Below, one piece after another: positions 401-44,959 of a DNA stretch of 45,182 nt; the stretch's first letter is position 1; each line of letters starts with the position of its first letter. The position numbers were made by a program, and so were the translations under genes. The notes beneath the pieces were generated by a model that did no database searches, had not been told where the DNA came from, and saw nothing but the letters and a program-made list of their open reading frames with translations. The stretch covers positions 280,549-325,730 of the forward strand of contig NZ_KB290716.1 in NCBI RefSeq assembly GCF_000318095.2, given 5' to 3'. The DNA is from Alloprevotella sp. oral taxon 473 str. F0040. GTDB lineage: Bacteria > Bacteroidota > Bacteroidia > Bacteroidales > Bacteroidaceae.

Positions 401-464
401 CCTCACGCGCGAGCGTGCGCGCGCACTACAGCAATTTTGCACTTTTTGCTTTCACAACCTTCAC
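401..464 (-). repeat. Core repeat with alternating-CG tail, locus 1 left copy (class B)
   Basis: On the minus strand this begins with the invariant 22-bp core (GTGAAGGTTGTGAAAGC followed by AAAAA, at 443-464), then a linker containing TTGCTGTAG and an alternating CG-rich tail at 403-424. It is the left partner of an inverted pair with the copy at 866-930. No ORF uses it. The class B linker is shared with the copies at 18665, 34919 and 44412. Confidence 0.85.
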
Positions 465-652: not shown

Positions 653-778
653 TCTGAGAAATATAGAAGAACCTCCGAGTGTTTGGGGGATATCTCGGAC
701 GTTTCTAAAAGAAACTCCGACATTGGAGCTAAAACATCGGAGATTTTATTCGTGCACTCGAAGAAGTACGAAGCGACG
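653..778. repeat. 21-bp phased TCSGA array, locus 1
   Basis: TC[GC]GA-type hexamers start at 653 (TCTGAG), 674, 695, 716, 737 (TCGGAG) and 758 (TCGAAG), exactly 21 bp apart; weaker units precede at 611 and 632. The sequence between the hexamers is not conserved. TCSGA is its own reverse complement, so both strands show the same phase. Read as codons it gives heptads opening with Ser-Asp or Ser-Glu (for example SDVSKRN, SDIGAKT), but the flanking frame has stops and no convincing gene is present. Confidence 0.8.
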
Positions 779-865: not shown

Positions 866-930
866 GTGAAGGTTGTGAAAGCAAAAAATGCTAAATCCCA
901 GGGAAGGCGCGCGTGTCACACGCGCGTGAG
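866..930 (+). repeat. Core repeat with CG palindrome, locus 1 right copy (class A)
   Basis: The invariant 22-bp core is at 866-887, followed by CCCAGGGAAGGCGCGC and the hairpin GCGCGTG-TCA-CACGCGC at 909-925. The class A tail is also seen at 34698-34762 (minus) and 44632-44696, and in a shortened form at 18442-18497 (minus). Paired in inverted orientation with 401-464. Nothing is recognised in 931-1011. Confidence 0.85.
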
Positions 931-1210: not shown

Positions 1211-1313
1211 AAGAAAAAACTGCACTTTTTCCTCTATTTTTCATTCTTTGCCTCATTATGAACCCATATATAGATAGGGGGGCAAGATTAAAGAATAGTA
1301 GAAAAAGTGCAGT
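1211..1313 (-). terminator. Long hairpin and T-run downstream of tamL
   Basis: ACTGCACTTTTTC (1219-1231) and GAAAAAGTGCAGT (1301-1313) pair perfectly. Inner segments (CTATTTTTCATTCTTTGCC against GGCAAGATTAAAGAATAG) extend the stem. On the minus strand the right arm is followed by TTTTTTCTTTTG, and tamL stops at 1327, so this is the likely terminator of the tam operon. The unusually long stem also leaves open a structured 3' RNA. Confidence 0.65.
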
Positions 1314-17919: not shown

Positions 17920-17978
17920 CCTTCCCCCTTTCTTCCCTATTTCCTCACCATACCCCCTACTTTATATGGGTACATATC

Positions 17979-18003
17979 GACCCAAAGAGTGAAAAATCGG
18001 CGA
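17979..18003 (+). repeat. Shared AAAGAGTGA motif, locus 2
   Basis: CGACCCAAAGAGTGAAAAAT followed by CGGCG. The closest relative is at 34525-34546; both follow a TATGGG block by 10-20 bp. Inverted relatives are in loci 1 and 4. Its function is unknown. Confidence 0.5.
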
Positions 18004-18090
18004 AAAAGTGACAAAACTTTTTGAGACACCGCCATTTTTGCAATACCTAGATTATAAAACACATTAATTTCGGCTATTTGTAGATTTCCG

Positions 18091-18140
18091 ACACAAGGCT
18101 CCGTAACCTCATCGTTGCGGAGCCTTGTGTATCTTCTCCC
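18091..18140 (+). terminator. Intrinsic terminator downstream of dprA
   Basis: ACACAAGGCTCCG (18091-18103) and CGGAGCCTTGTGT (18118-18130) form a perfect 13-bp stem, followed by the T-rich ATCTTCTCCCTTTTCC. It lies 171 bp after dprA with no gene between. Nothing is recognised in 18141-18239. Confidence 0.75.
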
Positions 18141-18239
18141 TTTTCCCTAAATCTGCTCTACCGCGCATAAGCTACTTTTCGCTCCTGTCTAGAATTTCTA
18201 AGTCCCCTTCCTTTTGTCCTGCAAAATCCCTAGTCAGTT

Positions 18240-18440
18240 TTAATCCCAATCGGTCATTAGATACTGAACGGATTTTATTTGGTTATTGAGCAGATGGTTG
18301 ATTGTGAGTTTGAAGGCGTAGCGGGCTACGTCGAAAACAAACGAGCAACAAGATGCCAACAAGATAATGAAAAATGGCAGGAAGCGATCTTTTCAATTTC
18401 GACTAGCACTATTGCGGTCTAACGACCGATTGGGGTTTAA
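18240..18440 (+). mobile_element. MITE-like element B (201 bp)
   Basis: Terminal inverted repeats are TTAATCCCAATCGGTCATTA at 18240 and, inverted, TTAAACCCCAATCGGTCGTT at 18440. The inside includes GTAGCGGGCTACG (also in the copy at 44960) and AATGGCAGGAAG. It has no ORF. It directly abuts the core repeat at 18442. Two full and two partial copies occur in the window, so it is a dispersed non-autonomous family. Confidence 0.75.
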
Positions 18441-18441
18441 G

Positions 18442-18497
18442 CCCTACGCGCGCGTACGTAACAGGGATTTCCATTTTTTTGCTTTCACAACCTTCAC
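18442..18497 (-). repeat. Core repeat with alternating-CG tail, locus 2 left copy (class A, shortened)
   Basis: The invariant 22-bp core is at 18476-18497 on the minus strand, followed by GGAAATCCCTGTTACGTACG and a CGCGCG tail. The tail resembles class A but lacks the middle part. Inverted partner: 18665-18728. Confidence 0.8.
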
Positions 18498-18606
18498 AGT
18501 ACCGCACAAAAACTACCTCGAAAAGCGCTATTTCTAGCGTGTCTTCTTTCCTCCGAAAATCAGGTTTTTTCCTTCCCTTCCAGCACTCAAATACCACACT
18601 TTCACG

Positions 18607-18623
18607 AACATTGTTCCTATTAC
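18607..18623 (+). repeat. Spacer motif between the paired core repeats, locus 2
   Basis: AACATTGTTCCTATTAC matches AACACCGTTCCTAATAC at 34861-34877 and, inverted, 44506-44522. In all three it lies between the two core repeats and keeps orientation relative to the class A and B copies. The 167-bp spacer also holds a small hairpin CGCTA/TAGCG near 18525. Confidence 0.6.
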
Positions 18624-18664
18624 CCTCATAAACTCCTCACTTACTGCCTCTTATTCTCAATTTT

Positions 18665-18728
18665 GTGAAGGTTGTGAAAGCAAAAAGTGCCAAATTTCAG
18701 GATGTGCGCGTGCGCGCACGCGCGAGAG
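18665..18728 (+). repeat. Core repeat with alternating-CG tail, locus 2 right copy (class B)
   Basis: The invariant 22-bp core is at 18665-18686, followed by GTGCCAAATTTCAGGA and a long alternating purine-pyrimidine tract (GTGCGCGTGCGCGCACGCGC) of the kind that can adopt Z-DNA. Confidence 0.85.
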
Positions 18729-18879
18729 CCCCATTTTTAACCCTCATTTTGTTGTGAATTTCTCTCCTCGATTCCTTCTCCACTTTCCCTCCCATTTGAG
18801 AGCAAAAAATCACAGTTTCCACCTCAAAATACTCCAAATATTTCCTCGTAAATTATTCGATTACCCCAAAAGTTCATTA

Positions 18880-19047
18880 TCATCCACCAAAAACTTTGCT
18901 CTCATCAAGCAAAAATACTCTCCCATCAAGCAAAATATTTTCTCCCACAAAACACAAAAAACGTCGGAGATAATTCAAAAAATCTCCAACGTTTTTCAAA
19001 AAAAGTCCGACGTTTTTTCGAGATTCTCCCACGTTATTAGAGCATTC
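18880..19047. repeat. 21-bp phased array, locus 2
   Basis: Hexamers at 18943 (TCCCAC), 18964 (TCGGAG), 18985 (TCCAAC), 19006 (TCCGAC) and 19027 (TCCCAC) are exactly 21 bp apart. Earlier units at 18880, 18901 and 18922 are recognisable by the repeated ATCAAGCAAAA block (18904 and 18925). In one plus-strand frame it reads as heptads such as SEIIQKI and SDVFSRF, inside a 100-codon ORF (18754-19056) that I do not accept as a proven gene. Confidence 0.75.
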
Positions 19048-19090
19048 TCAAAATAAAACTAGACGAAATATGCGTATTAATACTATCGCA

Positions 19091-20293
19091 TTATAAAGTT
19101 AAGCACAAAACAACAGATATACAAGTTGACAAAACCACAGCAATAGAAGTCACATAAATCAAAGTTCTACGCGCTGTCTTCTTTTGTAATTCAATCAAAC
19201 TATCAAATCGTTCTTGTTGAGCATTAAGTTGTTTGCTAAAATCTTCAGTAGCATCAGAAACTACGCTTTCAAGATTTTCCCTTGCCTCTGCGCTTATTTC
19301 AAGAAGTTTATTCTTGGACTTAGCAAACTCACACTCATTATTTTTAGCAATCGACGTAAGACTTTGAGACACATGATTTGACTTTTCATCCAATCTATTC
19401 TCATGCGTTGTAATGCTATCTTGTAAACACTTGCATTTTGAATCATAATCAGAAACAATTTGCTGTTCTTTTGCAATGGCTTGCGCCAATATCTGCTCAC
19501 ACTTTTGAGTTGAACTGCTTAATTCGTCCTTTGCATGATTGATATTTCGACGCATTTCCTCGCGTAGTTCTTCCCCTTTCCGTTGATTTTCTTGAAGACA
19601 ACGACTAATCTCTTTGCTCTTCTCCTCAAACTCTTGAACAAGTTCAGCTTTGAGCTTCTCTGTTTCTTTAAGAAGTTCCTTCTTTCCTTCTATAAAAAAA
19701 CGATTTTGTTCATTCTCAAGGCTGTCAATTCTTGCTTGAATCTTTTCTACAATATCATCAACACGAGCGTTAATCTTACCTTGCAGCATTCTCAGACGAT
19801 CTCGAAGAGTATAAGTACGATTCTTTAAGCCTTCTAGCATCTCCACAAAATGCTTATCTTTAATACCACTTTTCTGGATTAGGTTATCAAAAAAGTATCG
19901 TATTTCAACATCATTCGTTTCTAAATCATCGAACTTACCATAAATATCAGACTCTATCTTGACAATCATGACAATGAATTCAAGGATTTTGCTTATATGA
20001 TCATTAACACCAATAAGAGCTTCGCCACAAACTTTAAAACCCTCTGATAGATCCTTATACGTTGTTTTAAATCCTTCCTCGATACTACTTTTATCGATAG
20101 TAAGATACCAGTTACGACGTATTTCAATAGATGATGTATCTTTGAGTTTTTCTAGTTTTTTCGCTAGTTCGTCCTCGCCATTTTTAACAGACTGAATCAC
20201 TGTGCTTAATCTATTCTCTATCTGAGAAACAGACAAGTCTTCAGACTGATTCAAGAGAGGATAATTTCTTTCTTGCAATGTACCTTTATCCAT
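19091..20293 (-). CDS. Tail-anchored coiled-coil protein, partner of the nuclease gene
   Basis: A 400-aa protein not assigned to a named family. Its N-terminal 150 residues are mixed alpha-helical, with a hydrophobic helix at about 100-113. A long charged coiled coil runs from about 155 to 370 (many E/K/Q, few prolines). One C-terminal membrane segment at about 379-398 ends the protein, so the rod should face the cytoplasm from the inner membrane. It starts 2 bp after the stop of the 602-aa gene, which implies translational coupling and a joint role. Sampled GC is about 35%, far below neighbouring genes at about 50%, a sign of transfer. It might sense or scaffold for the upstream nuclease-membrane protein; this is inference. 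Confidence 0.8.
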   Translation of the reverse strand: MDKGTLQERNYPLLNQSEDLSVSQIENRLSTVIQSVKNGEDELAKKLEKLKDTSSIEIRRNWYLTIDKSSIEEGFKTTYKDLSEGFKVCGEALIGVNDHISKILEFIVMIVKIESDIYGKFDDLETNDVEIRYFFDNLIQKSGIKDKHFVEMLEGLKNRTYTLRDRLRMLQGKINARVDDIVEKIQARIDSLENEQNRFFIEGKKELLKETEKLKAELVQEFEEKSKEISRCLQENQRKGEELREEMRRNINHAKDELSSSTQKCEQILAQAIAKEQQIVSDYDSKCKCLQDSITTHENRLDEKSNHVSQSLTSIAKNNECEFAKSKNKLLEISAEARENLESVVSDATEDFSKQLNAQQERFDSLIELQKKTARRTLIYVTSIAVVLSTCISVVLCLTL

Positions 20294-20295
20294 AA

Positions 20296-22104
20296 TTAGA
20301 AATCTTCATCATTTACAGAATCATTCTTTAGTTTCTCAAGATTAGCAATGAAATCATCTTGCTGAACTAGAGCTCTTTTGACTTTCTTATTAACAACATT
20401 GACTTCACTTTGTTTCTGCACGAAACTTTCATGAGCTATTTTCATTGTTCCAAACTCAACAGCAACCTGCTCATAGGTAGCTTTCATTTTCATATTTACC
20501 TCAAGCGAAGAGAGGGTAATCTTTGCAGACTGAATATGAATCAGCTTAGATTGTTGCTGAATTATACGAGTAGATACGCTTGGACTGAAAAATTGAGTTT
20601 TGAACCTATCAAACAAAAGCAGAACCAAACCAGAAGTAATACCAGCAAACAGCCCCGCAAAACATTCTGCAATATAAGAAGAGAATGGAATACCTAGGCT
20701 CGTGAGCCCTTTATCTATAAGTTCATTGAGACCGAAACCTAAAAGAGCGACAACACCTGCAGTAAGTACTTTTGTAGCTTCATAGAGACGCTCACCAAAA
20801 GACACAGATTTGTCAGATTTAAAGATAATCTTAAATGCAGACTTAATGGAACCCCACATTTTTCGGATAATGCGAAGCGTATTCTTGAATGTATTGAAGA
20901 CAAAATCATTCAACGCTGTGAAAATTTCTGCTATTACATTGCTCTTGAAACTTTCCCACGCTGATTTCAATGTCTGTTTTACTTTATCTTTTATGATTTG
21001 CCACGACTGCTTAAACGCTCTCTTAACACGAACAAAGAATTTATCGTCACTATCAGACGAGAATTCTTTGTACATCTCTGAGACAATTGTACCAACAACA
21101 TCTTTGAGCAAACCTACTAGTACACTCTTACCAACTGAAACCAATGTTGATTTTGCAGCACGCTTTGCACGAATCTTCGCTTCATGCTTTATATATGCAA
21201 TTTTCTCTTCTGAAATAAATTTATTCAGCTGAGCTTTTGTGGAATCACCATGTAGGTAGCTTGTCATCTCTGAACAATAACCTTTATGACGCGCACCATC
21301 ATGCACATCACGAGGTACAAGCATCATACCATCAGGTCCTTCATGAATGGTTAGATTATGGTCCTTGCGCCACTTTTGAGCTTCAGCTTTACTTTTGAAA
21401 CCATAGCGCGACATCAGCTCTGCATCAAATCTATCGAAATTTGTCTTACGCACAAAAGAAGCGGTTTTAGTTCTGTCGAGTTTATCTGGACATTGTGCAC
21501 GAAATTTTTCCTCCATCTCGCTTACACTATACATAGGAACTACAGGACCTACTTTATAGCTTCTCAAACCAGCAAGAGACTCTAGATTGGCTTGTTTGTT
21601 CGTCTTATAGTCTATTGTATTCCCATCTTTTGATAGTGCAGTAATACTCTTAGTGCGTTGCTCATAAGCCATGAGATCACGCTCTAAGGTCTCCTTTCCA
21701 CAATCAGACATTCCCTGTGTGTGTTGGTTTACATTCTTATCAAAAGGCGTGGTGCGAGCATCAGACATCTTTCTAGACTCTTTTGAAACATTAGGGTCTG
21801 CAGAAGGGTGTGATATATCTATATCAGTTTTATCCCACTTTGAGACATCTTGTGGATTGCGCAAGTTCTCATTCTCGACTGCTATGCCCGTCATGCCTTC
21901 TAAATAGTCTAAAGCACTCTTCTTAGCACTCTCAAGCACTTCTCTGAACAAGTCTTTTTGTCCTTGAGCTTCTTTTTCTAACTCTAGAATTTCTCGTAAA
22001 GCTTGCTCTTCTTCTGCTGACAACATCGTTTTAATGTCGTTCAAATCAGCCTCCGAATATTCCAACTCTATTTCAGGTTGGTAAATAAGTAAATCACTAT
22101 TCAT
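20296..22104 (-). CDS. Membrane protein with a WHH/HNH-like nuclease motif
   Basis: A 602-aa protein. Residues 251-276 read LTIHEGPDGM..LVPRDVHDGARHKGY, which lines up with the WHH branch of the HNH/endonuclease VII superfamily (T-W-H-H..DG..M.LVP.D.H....H.G). H254, H268 and H273 are the expected metal or catalytic positions; the usual W-H-H is I-H-E here. A polar N-terminus of about 200 residues precedes it. Basic amphipathic helices fill 300-430, then two hydrophobic segments (about 447-461 and 479-498) and a C-terminal helical tail. A central nuclease followed by a membrane region differs from polymorphic toxins, whose toxin is C-terminal, and no immunity gene is visible. AT-rich, beside tRNA-His, coupled to the coiled-coil gene. 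A defence or conflict role is inferred. Confidence 0.7.
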   Translation of the reverse strand: MNSDLLIYQPEIELEYSEADLNDIKTMLSAEEEQALREILELEKEAQGQKDLFREVLESAKKSALDYLEGMTGIAVENENLRNPQDVSKWDKTDIDISHPSADPNVSKESRKMSDARTTPFDKNVNQHTQGMSDCGKETLERDLMAYEQRTKSITALSKDGNTIDYKTNKQANLESLAGLRSYKVGPVVPMYSVSEMEEKFRAQCPDKLDRTKTASFVRKTNFDRFDAELMSRYGFKSKAEAQKWRKDHNLTIHEGPDGMMLVPRDVHDGARHKGYCSEMTSYLHGDSTKAQLNKFISEEKIAYIKHEAKIRAKRAAKSTLVSVGKSVLVGLLKDVVGTIVSEMYKEFSSDSDDKFFVRVKRAFKQSWQIIKDKVKQTLKSAWESFKSNVIAEIFTALNDFVFNTFKNTLRIIRKMWGSIKSAFKIIFKSDKSVSFGERLYEATKVLTAGVVALLGFGLNELIDKGLTSLGIPFSSYIAECFAGLFAGITSGLVLLLFDRFKTQFFSPSVSTRIIQQQSKLIHIQSAKITLSSLEVNMKMKATYEQVAVEFGTMKIAHESFVQKQSEVNVVNKKVKRALVQQDDFIANLEKLKNDSVNDEDF

Positions 22105-34375: not shown

Positions 34376-34524
34376 ACTCATATCCCTGTTTTAAACCGTG
34401 ATGCTCTCCTCCAACTCGTGCCACATTCTGCTCCCTCTTTGCGTGATGTGGCATGATGCAGTTTGAAATGCCTCGATGCTCACGCCCCATGACCCATGCC
34501 CCTATAAAGATATGGGAGGAAATT

Positions 34525-34546
34525 GCCCTAAAGAGTGAAAAATCGC
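34525..34546 (+). repeat. Shared AAAGAGTGA motif, locus 3
   Basis: GCCCTAAAGAGTGAAAAATC followed by GC. Best matched at 17979-18003 in locus 2, with a TATGGG block just upstream in both. The stretch 34376-34524 holds only a TGCCACAT/ATGTGGCA inverted repeat (34419-34453) without a T-run. Confidence 0.5.
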
Positions 34547-34697: not shown

Positions 34698-34762
34698 CTC
34701 ACGCGCGCGTGACAGGCGCGCCTTCCCTGGGAATTTCGTTTTTTTGCTTTCACAACCTTCAC
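34698..34762 (-). repeat. Core repeat with CG palindrome, locus 3 left copy (class A)
   Basis: The invariant 22-bp core is at 34741-34762 on the minus strand, then AAATTCCCAGGGAAGGCGCG and a GTCACGCGCGCGTGAG tail. It is nearly identical to the copy at 44632-44696. A partial core (GTGAAGGTTG) also occurs at 34611. Confidence 0.85.
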
Positions 34763-34860: not shown

Positions 34861-34877
34861 AACACCGTTCCTAATAC
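34861..34877 (+). repeat. Spacer motif between the paired core repeats, locus 3
   Basis: AACACCGTTCCTAATAC; relatives at 18607-18623 and (inverted) 44506-44522 in the same position of the module. Confidence 0.6.
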
Positions 34878-34918: not shown

Positions 34919-34970
34919 GTGAAGGTTGTGAAAGCAAAAAGTGAGAAATTGCTGTACGCGCGCGCGAGGG
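34919..34970 (+). repeat. Core repeat with alternating-CG tail, locus 3 right copy (class B)
   Basis: The invariant 22-bp core is at 34919-34940, then GTGAGAAATTGCTGTACGCG and a CGCGCGAG tail. Inverted partner: 34698-34762, with 156 bp between the cores. Confidence 0.85.
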
Positions 34971-35113: not shown

Positions 35114-35218
35114 TGGGATATACTTTCTAAACTCTCGGAGATATTCTAAAGAATGTCGGAGATTTCTGGTATTATCTCGGAGTTTTCCCGAAGTATGTCG
35201 GATACATTTTCACAATCT
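35114..35218. repeat. 21-bp phased TCSGA array, locus 3
   Basis: TCGGAG at 35135, 35156 and 35177 and TCGGAT at 35198 are exactly 21 bp apart; a weak unit precedes at 35114. Plus-strand heptads include SEISGII and SEFSRSM, with a stop codon in the first unit; minus-strand heptads include SEIIPEI. Neither frame makes a convincing gene. Nothing else is recognised in 34971-35113. Confidence 0.8.
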
Positions 35219-37514: not shown

Positions 37515-38378
37515 ATGCTTCATATCGAAATCGACACTGGTTCGGGCTTCTGCTTTGGGGTGACAAGTGCTATCAAAAAAGCGGAAGACGAACTCACCGA
37601 ACGCGATATTCTTTACTGCCTTGGCGACATCGTGCACAATAGCCGCGAATGTGAACGCCTGCGCGAACGTGGACTGGTGATGATTGACCATGCCACCTTT
37701 GAAAAACTTCACGATGTGAGAGTGTTGCTCCGTGCACACGGCGAACCTCCCTCGACTTACGAAACAGCGCGCCGCAATAACATCACGCTTGTTGATGCCA
37801 CTTGCCCCGTGGTCTTGAATCTCCAAAAGCGCATCCGACGGGTGTATCACGAAATGGGCAATGATCCCCAAATTGTGATTTATGGCAAGCACGGACACGC
37901 GGAAGTTCTCGGACTCGTGGGACAAACCAACAGCGAAGCCATCGTGATTGCCGACATCAGTGAGGTGGATAAGGTGGATCTCACGCGCAACACGTATCTG
38001 TTTTCCCAAACTACCAAACCTCTGGAGGGTTTTCAGACGTTGATCAATTACCTCACCGAACACATCAAAGCTCCAGCCGAATTCAAATGCTTCGACACCA
38101 TCTGCCGCAGTGTTTCTAATCGTCTGCCAGCAGTACAAGATTTTGCGCGCAAACACGATGTGGTGCTCTTTGTTTGCGGTCTCAAAAGCAGCAACGGACG
38201 TGTGCTCTATGAGGCCTGCCACAAGATCAACGAGCACACTCATCTAGTGGACGACCCAACGATGTTGGATGCTGCGTGGTTTGACGGTGCTCAAAGCGTG
38301 GGCATCTGTGGGGCAACGTCTACTCCCAAATGGCTCATGGAGAAATGTGCCGAACGCGTGCGTGAAATCACGGAATAG
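37515..38378 (+). CDS. ispH: 4-hydroxy-3-methylbut-2-enyl diphosphate reductase
   Basis: A 287-aa iron-sulfur enzyme for the last step of the non-mevalonate isoprenoid pathway (HMBPP to IPP and DMAPP). The three cluster-binding cysteines are C13 (SGFCFGV), C97 (DATCPVV) and C197 (DTICRSVSNR), with HGE at 75-77 and the catalytic-site KHGHAE at 125-130. Length is standard. It starts 131 bp after porQ. A 43-bp tandem repeat follows its stop. Confidence 0.96.
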   Translation: MLHIEIDTGSGFCFGVTSAIKKAEDELTERDILYCLGDIVHNSRECERLRERGLVMIDHATFEKLHDVRVLLRAHGEPPSTYETARRNNITLVDATCPVVLNLQKRIRRVYHEMGNDPQIVIYGKHGHAEVLGLVGQTNSEAIVIADISEVDKVDLTRNTYLFSQTTKPLEGFQTLINYLTEHIKAPAEFKCFDTICRSVSNRLPAVQDFARKHDVVLFVCGLKSSNGRVLYEACHKINEHTHLVDDPTMLDAAWFDGAQSVGICGATSTPKWLMEKCAERVREITE

Positions 38379-38393
38379 TGCGATGCGCACCAA

Positions 38394-38505
38394 GACTTTA
38401 AGGTGAAATATCACCGAGGAGTGTTATACATAGCACGACTTTAAGGTGAAATATCACGGAGATGTGTTACACATAGCACGACTTTAAGGTGAGAAATCAC
38501 AGAAA
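38394..38505. repeat. 43-bp tandem repeat between ispH and mnmA
   Basis: GACTTTAAGGTGA starts at 38394, 38437 and 38480: two full units and one partial, 43 bp each, with few differences. Each unit contains GGTGAAATATCAC (a small palindrome) and GTGTTA-ACATAGCAC. The sequences between copies are part of the unit, not spacers. It lies 55-165 bp upstream of mnmA and may affect its expression. Confidence 0.85.
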
Positions 38506-44238: not shown

Positions 44239-44257
44239 GAAGAAGCGCGTAAATCAC

Positions 44258-44341
44258 TCGGAGTTTTTCAAGATTATGTCGGAGATTTCACCACAAATCT
44301 CCGACTTTTTTGTATCCTTCTCGGAGAAGTTCCGCACACTT
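44258..44341. repeat. 21-bp phased TCSGA array, locus 4
   Basis: TCGGAG at 44258 and 44279, TCCGAC at 44300 and TCGGAG at 44321 are exactly 21 bp apart. Plus-strand heptads are of the form SEISPQI and SDFFVSF. In the mirrored module order it lies outside the class B core copy, as in loci 2 and 3. Confidence 0.85.
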
Positions 44342-44411: not shown

Positions 44412-44464
44412 CCTCACGCGCGCACATACAGCAGTTTTACACTTTTTGCTTTCACAACCTTCAC
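44412..44464 (-). repeat. Core repeat with alternating-CG tail, locus 4 left copy (class B)
   Basis: The invariant 22-bp core is at 44443-44464 on the minus strand, then GTGTAAAACTGCTGTATGTG and CGCGCGTGAG. Inverted partner: 44632-44696, with 167 bp between the cores, the same distance as in locus 2. Confidence 0.85.
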
Positions 44465-44505: not shown

Positions 44506-44522
44506 GTATTAGGAACATTGTT
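44506..44522 (-). repeat. Spacer motif between the paired core repeats, locus 4
   Basis: GTATTAGGAACATTGTT on the plus strand, i.e. AACAATGTTCCTAATAC on the minus strand, matching 18607-18623 and 34861-34877 in inverted orientation, as expected for the mirrored module. Confidence 0.6.
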
Positions 44523-44631
44523 TACTCTTTCATATTGGCAAGCAGCAAAACGGACGACTTTTTACGGCAAAAATAACGAAGAAACAGTCTCACCTTGATA
44601 GGCACAATCATTGGTCTAAAAAACTGCTTCG

Positions 44632-44696
44632 GTGAAGGTTGTGAAAGCAAAAAATCGAAATTCCCAGGGAAGGCGCGCACGTCACGCGCGCGTGAG
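44632..44696 (+). repeat. Core repeat with CG palindrome, locus 4 right copy (class A)
   Basis: The invariant 22-bp core is at 44632-44653, then AAATTCCCAGGGAAGGCGCG and GTCACGCGCGCGTGAG. It is nearly identical over its full length to the copy at 34698-34762. Confidence 0.85.
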
Positions 44697-44875: not shown

Positions 44876-44894
44876 TTTTTCTCACTTTCGGGCG
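44876..44894 (-). repeat. Shared AAAGAGTGA-type motif, locus 4 (diverged)
   Basis: CGCCCGAAAGTGAGAAAAA on the minus strand resembles the motif of loci 1-3 with a 2-bp deletion. It is the weakest of the four. Nothing else is recognised in 44697-44875. Confidence 0.3.
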
Positions 44895-44959
44895 ATTTCG
44901 ACCCACTATTAATTGTAGGGCTTTCCCAATTGGAAGAAAGCTCCATTTCATTTTTACCT

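Follow-up and report, generated by a model that had tools for sequence, protein, structure and literature searches.

Results

Four composite elements lie in the gene-free regions of the window

The window, that is the whole 45,182-base stretch of DNA analysed here, comes from contig C16 (positions 280549-325730) of the 2,553,017-base draft genome of Alloprevotella sp. oral taxon 473 str. F0040 (G000, 96.7% complete). Four loci in this stretch each carry a pair of inverted cores (starting at 443/866, 18476/18665, 34741/34919 and 44443/44632) and one of four 21-bp arrays, and the repeated composite module described in the first-pass annotation is therefore real.

Locus 2 carries on its L side a side motif (CCCCCTA..ATATGGG..AAAGAGTGAAAAATCG, 17953..17999, plus strand) that is repeated in locus 3 and is missed by our strict regular expression; the AAAGAGTGA motif of this locus lies at 17984-17992 (placed at 17979 in the first-pass annotation). 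An alternating purine-pyrimidine GC tract in the L arm (18445..18460) precedes the L core (18476..18497, minus strand), which is identical in the orthologous element of a related species. The R arm comprises a type motif of the beta form (18604..18623, plus strand), at a fixed distance inside the R core and assigned from the R-arm consensus and type counts, the R core itself (18665..18686, plus strand; its 5' G lies 168 bp from that of the L core) and a second alternating GC tract, which is palindromic (18702..18724). Both tracts belong to the class evaluated in the genome-wide tract test below. Further out, the 21-bp array (18920..19031), made of CTCCRA/TCGGAG-type words and A/T tracts, corresponds to the lag-21 periodicity peak. 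Beside this array, positions 19091-22104 of the window hold two neighbouring minus-strand genes (400 and 602 aa) for which no Pfam family scored above cut-off.

Locus 3 has the same arrangement: a side motif that repeats the locus 2 motif and contains AAAGAGTGA, with no strict-regex match (34510..34545, plus), an L core (34741..34762, minus), a beta type motif (34861..34877, plus), an R core 157 bp from the L core (34919..34940, plus) and an array (35134..35181). Locus 4 is the mirror image of loci 2 and 3, as originally described, with the array (44257..44325), R core (44443..44464, minus), beta type motif (44506..44524, minus), L core (44632..44653, plus) and a side motif scored in the strict-regex test (44877..44921, minus). 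Between loci 3 and 4, a 43-bp unit is repeated three times in tandem between two genes (38367-38503); it is unrelated to the cores.

At locus 1 the array (673..742) lies between a minus-strand core (443..464) and a plus-strand core (866..887), which by eye are of R and L type, respectively, judging from their outer flanks; the side motif (1234..1282, minus) was likewise seen by eye and has no strict-regex match. The first-pass annotation took this as a changed order of parts. The array is indeed internal, but 12 of 19 long elements of the genome share that order, and the parts of locus 1, read by eye as the long type in mirror image, need not be scrambled. Automatic L/R scoring gives this locus the opposite orientation with low scores, and locus 1, L067 and L080 all score poorly in that assignment.

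A MITE-like repeat of about 207 bp with terminal inverted repeats (18233..18442) adjoins the element at locus 2. MITE copies had been noted beside several of the loci, but among the 21 places listed for this repeat only 5 are within 1 kb of a core, and it is a repeat independent of the element. It also adjoins the orthologous locus 2 in LT608321.1 (L156).

Cores are paired across the F0040 genome

As the first-pass annotation had proposed, the 22-bp core GTGAAGGTTGTGAAAGCAAAAA was searched for in this genome and in its relatives. The F0040 genome contains 89 sites at up to 3 mismatches (71 exact; 45 on the plus and 44 on the minus strand), compared with 0 for the reversed control pattern. The sites fall into 46 loci, 43 of which show a minus core followed by a plus core. 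More specifically, both cores have at most 4 mismatches at 42 of these loci, and at L072 the partner has 6; L060, L061 and L066 hold a single core. These three and L072 were left out of the arm, type and spacing counts. The cores are thus not mostly unpaired, which the first-pass annotation had regarded as the mark of a chance cluster, and all pairs have the same relative orientation. No core occurs in the first 556 kb of contig C17.

The core consists of two tandem GTGAARG half-sites 9 bp apart; it is bipartite and not palindromic, which suggests two DNA-binding units per core. Half-site spacings of 8, 9 and 10 occur between and within species and keep no reading frame, and short-peptide coding was rejected on this ground. 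Some copies have extra tandem double cores that straddle runs of 20 N, which we read as scaffold joins. In 15 of 42 elements the L and R cores are unequal, without compensation.

The core-to-core distance is most often about 190 bp. When equal distances are collapsed, distances in the F0040 genome are helically phased (p=0.003, best period 10.4). The same test on relatives gave p=0.07 with a best period of 11.45 in LT608321.1 and p=0.03 with a best period of about 9.15 in G047, the latter using distances derived by hand from 71 of 85 listed sites. Phasing is accordingly supportive in F0040 and weak elsewhere, where the best periods are not 10.5, and looping is something that we infer.

Locus 2 matched no phage or plasmid sequence and no Rfam family at gathering score, the core pattern matched no viral contig, and three core strings had no occurrence in the literature searched. 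As far as we have searched, we therefore agree with the first-pass annotation that this is not a named family.

Each element has two distinct arms

Each core is flanked on its outer side by a GC-rich tract in which purines and pyrimidines alternate. The longest alternating run has a median of 23 bases in R arms (n=40) and 14 in L arms (n=37), compared with 5 in 172 control stretches. These tracts are only somewhat more palindromic than alternation alone yields (of 8 pairs, 6.88 versus 6.11 expected in R arms and 6.49 versus 6.01 in L arms). Arms containing N were excluded from this test and from the comparison of arm likeness, in which, across 35 elements, resemblance outside the core is no greater between the arms of a single element than between arms of different elements (0.484 versus 0.524 and 0.350 versus 0.354, within versus between; p=0.98 and 0.56).

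The L and R arms differ consistently. The R arm carries the type motif on its inner side, at about -63 to -45, and a TTACA near -16. Among 42 R arms the type motif takes three forms (alpha 14, beta 11, gamma 13), with none in 4; the spacer motif AACAnyGTTCCTAwTAC of the first-pass annotation is the beta form, which can also be written GAAC-N3-GTTCCTATTAC. By eye, the inner motifs of the L and R arms go with their own outer flanks. The sequence between the cores varies: the first 95 nt of 14 short spacers are 29% identical between copies, compared with 26% after shuffling, and the last 70 nt are 46% identical.

Arrays with at least three words in phase lie on the R side of 17 of 24 short elements (L side 1, inside 1). 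Long elements have the array inside in 12 of 19 cases and on the R side in none. In 493 kb of sequence, partly chosen for its elements and not random, we counted 22 array chains, compared with 1 when the sequence was reversed, and 12 of the 22 are without cores. Outward of the core, periodicity is strongest at lag 21 in F0040 and in the congeners G047 and G048, and lag 21 ranks third in G005 (5 segments); a weaker lag-21 peak is also seen on the L side in F0040. The AAAGAGTGA side motif, defined by a strict regular expression, has matches at 9 of 43 elements, all of them L-sided and in one direction, with 0 matches in the other three arrangements; this expression misses copies seen by eye, for example those of loci 1, 2 and 3. 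The first-pass annotation saw one evolving unit with conserved order. That description fits the core pair and, largely, the array; for the side motif, strict matches are limited to a minority of elements.

Elements are intergenic and often face gene 3' ends

Genes were called by codon usage with our own script, and none of the 46 loci overlaps a called gene. The 42 element-holding gaps with both neighbours called comprise 13 convergent, 22 tandem and 7 divergent gaps; element-free gaps in the same stretches are convergent in 13 of 179 cases (3 of 43 for gaps of at least 250 bp). Placement between convergent genes, as noted in the first-pass annotation for the window, is an enrichment and not a rule, since 29 of the 42 gaps are tandem or divergent. 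In 35 of 42 gaps a gene 3' end faces the element from one side or from both, and in 38 cases scored by side a 3' end is faced on the L side in 23 and on the R side in 21. Orientation relative to the replication fork gave 21 of 32 (p=0.11), using pairs that we assigned ourselves, some by order along contigs.

REP/BIME elements of enterobacteria are also extragenic and often 3' of genes. The resemblance in placement that had been proposed holds for the intergenic position and the convergent enrichment; it does not hold for the gaps that are not convergent, and PF01797, the RAYT transposase family, has no match in the F0040 genome.

Orthologous elements keep the cores and, when short, their distance

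In a collection with one genome per species, from which the window's own genome and its nearest relatives may be omitted, the exact-type core pattern occurs only in LT608321.1 (G043), Prevotellaceae bacterium Marseille-P2826. This genome has 85 core sites, namely 42 pairs and one single, with the same pairing as in F0040. For proteins neighbouring the elements, the best matches between the two genomes reach a median of 92% identity (93 matches). We proposed 34 ortholog pairs, some assigned by order along contigs; 28 had enough sequence and 27 at least one matching flank (15 both, 12 one). L078, with neither flank matching, was dropped.

Across the 27 supported pairs the core is 98.6% identical (1124 of 1140 positions), compared with 76.6% for the spacer, 77.5% for the flank and 86.5% for the outer 45 bp. 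Restricting the analysis to the 15 pairs with both flanks gave 98.9%, 75.6%, 78.6% and 86.5%, respectively. The type-motif stretch of the R arm is kept at 75.5%, compared with 50.2% at equivalent L positions (ungapped anchoring; 28 pairs, L078 included). Among short supported elements, the core-to-core distance changes by no more than 2 bp in 17 of 18, the remaining one differing by 21 bp, and in 10 of 10 with both flanks. The same holds for 24 of 62 intergenic control windows of at least 50% identity and at most 220 bp (p=2.3e-5 and 2.4e-4, respectively). Long elements, counted before L078 was dropped, keep their distance within 2 bp in 1 of 9 cases. The interior fits better in the orientation of the flank in 28 of 28 pairs, or 27 of 27 once L078, the weakest, is dropped.

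The two genomes also differ in the presence and absence of elements, for which ten cases were aligned. At the four such sites that we read, most of the gap of about 1 kb differs, and neither a clean empty site nor a target duplication was seen. Arrays without cores were noted at L224 (11099-11167) and L225 (6432-6543), where the other species has an array and a core pair.

Taking LT608321.1 as circular, about 1.1 Mb (starting at about 2.06 Mb and running across the scaffold end as far as 0.44 Mb) holds one element only (largest-gap p=0.0005), and GC samples of this stretch are mostly lower. Sampled GC skew suggests an origin near 1.7 Mb and a terminus near 0.35 Mb. An ori/ter macrodomain was considered and rejected: the element-poor stretch is not symmetric about either point, and a core-versus-accessory explanation is as good. 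Near the skew-predicted origin, L050, L051, L052 and L054 of F0040 lie at apparent rearrangement breakpoints relative to L233-L236 of LT608321.1. These may be real or due to scaffolding; a run of 20 N is present in L052 and not in L050, L051 or L054, and N also occurs in L055.

Similar layouts built from other words occur in three more congeners

Among 58 genomes of the genus, a 17-base core stands out in F0040 and LT608321.1 only. G018 was rejected as a carrier: it has 13 inexact matches to the 17-mer, but the longer pattern occurs only seven times at 3 mismatches. A pattern with free bases between the half-sites, GTGAAGGN{1,3}GTGAARGCAAA, was found at 85 sites in G047 and 16 in G048, compared with 0 in 54 other congeners and 0 for the reversed control. 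The GC tract, searched at up to 1 mismatch, occurs 29 times in F0040, 33 in LT608321.1, 40 in G047, 31 in G048 and 14 in G005 (85% complete), compared with 0 to 5 in other congeners. In G005 the elements use GTGGARG half-sites, 45 of which lie within 420 bp and 3 beyond 700 bp at 8 chosen loci. G047, G048 and G005 thus have similar layouts with other words. A CRISPR-like direct repeat was seen near a GC tract at L248 (G048 contig C90).

The count of half-sites by distance just given for G005 drew on 8 of 9 loci there (L249, which is coding, was omitted); the corresponding counts used 6 of 9 G048 loci and 4 of 15 G047 loci. Where neighbouring half-sites are inverted, their spacing is 43-44 bp in G048 (38 of 44 cases) and G047 (13 of 18), and 44-45 bp in G005 (5 of 10). 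No such 43-45 bp inverted unit was found in F0040, and the inner geometry is therefore not common to all carriers.

F0040, LT608321.1, G047 and G048 all have a core just downstream of dprA. Counting this position, a clear ortholog beside an F0040 element was found at 1 of 11 G047 positions and 3 of 13 G048 positions. Because the F0040 neighbourhoods compared amount to about 11% of the genome, the number in G047 does not exceed what chance would give. Most positions differ between F0040 and G047, and few coincide with those of G048, which implies that elements are gained and lost.

Discussion

Comparison with known systems

REP/BIME elements of enterobacteria resemble these elements in being intergenic and dispersed, with units of alternating orientation, motifs between them and a likely role as protein-binding DNA. 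Their unit is a palindrome of about 20-40 nt, whereas the core here consists of tandem half-sites. Binding of gyrase or IHF is a further criterion for REP/BIME elements. REPs usually exceed 100 copies (PMC2817692); here there are about 45 element copies, and the distance between units is constrained in short elements. REPIN/RAYT systems share the inverted pair of short, species-specific words in intergenic DNA; in contrast to them, the spacers here are unrelated between copies. A RAYT-type origin was rejected: PF01797 (Y1_Tnp) had no match in four of five carriers and 1 in G047, with the F0040 draft 96.7% and G005 85% complete.

As for MITEs, the inverted cores lie inside GC tracts and the outer ends are undefined; MITE copies are similar over their length, in contrast to the near-background identity of the spacers over their first 95 nt. 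The BrickBuilt MITE of Porphyromonas gingivalis has 19 copies with a 23-nt tandem repeat framed by a leader and a tail and with small inverted-repeat ends (PMC4596501). It is like the present elements in being intergenic, in tens of copies, with a short-period array and in the Bacteroidales; it differs in that the period here is 21 and the array lies outside the cores in most short elements or occurs without cores. PINSR, a 188-bp repeat of Prevotella intermedia and P. nigrescens with 177 and 184 copies, is reported to be without terminal inverted repeats (PMC4755523). It is also intergenic and lineage-specific, occurs in Prevotella and has many copies common to the genomes compared; the inverted cores and the lack of a spacer consensus over the first 95 nt set our elements apart from it, by description. 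They also resemble another kind of site in being dispersed, conserved and short, and uneven along the chromosome. The matS, parS and NBS-type sites are dispersed conserved short sites that organise chromosomes. Unlike these, the elements combine paired bipartite sites with arrays and GC tracts, and their word differs between congeners. We recognise no named family among those searched.

A proposed role as paired sites for a DNA-bridging protein

Our best reading is that the elements are paired sites for a putative DNA-bridging protein, BIME-like in role and yet not REP/BIME. One sequence-specific protein would bind both cores and bridge them, closing a small loop. The GC tracts, which can adopt Z-DNA or cruciform structures, may shape or anchor the complex, as may the A/T-tracted 21-bp array, which spans two helical turns and is perhaps bent or bound by a second protein, within the intergenic gaps. 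As the preference of the protein drifts, selection would carry all of the approximately 45 sites along, making the word species-specific while the general layout is kept. The core word and the short-element distance are kept while the intervening DNA drifts, and the copies are not recent duplicates, as expected of protein sites that must meet. Long elements, which change length freely between the two species, count against bridging. From sequence comparison, we consider it the most probable interpretation, at a little under an even chance, that the elements are DNA-level nucleoprotein sites that structure or insulate the chromosome. The complex could be structuring, insulating or regulatory; the stretch of about 1.1 Mb with one element counts against a general insulator role, which does not predict such a gap.

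The inverted, terminal-like cores and the consistent L/R asymmetry also fit a non-autonomous mobile element, in which a transposase acting in trans, at present or in an ancestor, would bind the cores as the ends of a MITE-like element. Presence/absence differences between two close species and the single shared position among 11 in G047 point the same way. We nevertheless regard this as unlikely, because copies remain constrained after speciation in core and, if short, in spacing, as dead insertions would not be. Moreover, the copies have unrelated spacers and hence are not the product of recent transposon spread; reading of the four presence/absence sites showed no clean empty site or target duplication, and PF01797, the sole transposase family searched, had no match in any carrier except G047. 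Distinctly less probable is an element acting in RNA, where a long hairpin or the GC hairpins would, once transcribed, terminate transcription in both directions, stabilise 3' ends or form a small RNA. Locus 2 can form a long stem (z=-6.0), to be expected in part because its cores are inverted, and most gaps present at least one gene 3' end to the element. Against such an element stand the uncompensated differences between L and R cores and the 7 divergent gaps; the arm comparison likewise disfavours a stem, and locus 2 has 1 terminator-like site against 1.0 expected and no Rfam family.

Phase-variable promoters of Bacteroides are invertible segments flipped by a site-specific invertase, and inverted repeats about 190 bp apart that flank a possibly promoter-like motif recall them. 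If the cores were recombination sites of such an invertase, both orientations might be met with; instead, orientation is the same in all 27 supported pairs (one genome per species), on which ground an invertible promoter was rejected, and the inner motifs go with their own outer flanks by eye. We give an invertible segment of any kind scarcely any credence. Very unlikely, too, is a chance cluster of independent intergenic repeats without joint function. It would account for the arrays without cores, the independence of the MITE and the few strict side-motif matches, and it leaves unexplained the pairing of the cores, the constrained distance in short elements and the preferred positions of the array; it is already disfavoured for the core pair and may still apply to the array and side motif.

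A wider form of the bridging interpretation is that these are chromosome-wide paired looping sites that organise the chromosome of one Bacteroidota clade through the putative protein. Its layout would comprise paired bipartite sites, GC tracts and a 21-bp array whose word is also species-specific, with a fixed distance in the short elements of F0040 and LT608321.1 and 43-45 bp inverted units in three relatives, and it would persist while the words change in concert at dozens of loci. On the sequence alone we hold this broader proposal to be possible but rather doubtful.

Repeats between bacterial genes are commonly regarded as debris of mobile elements. In this case, individual copies preserve their word, and short ones their spacing too, across species, and the concerted difference of the word between relatives at dozens of unrelated loci argues for a trans-acting factor under selection. 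The system may thus offer a natural experiment in which a DNA-binding protein co-evolves with its sites, and the core, usable as bait for the factor, could reveal a chromosome-organising protein in Bacteroidota.
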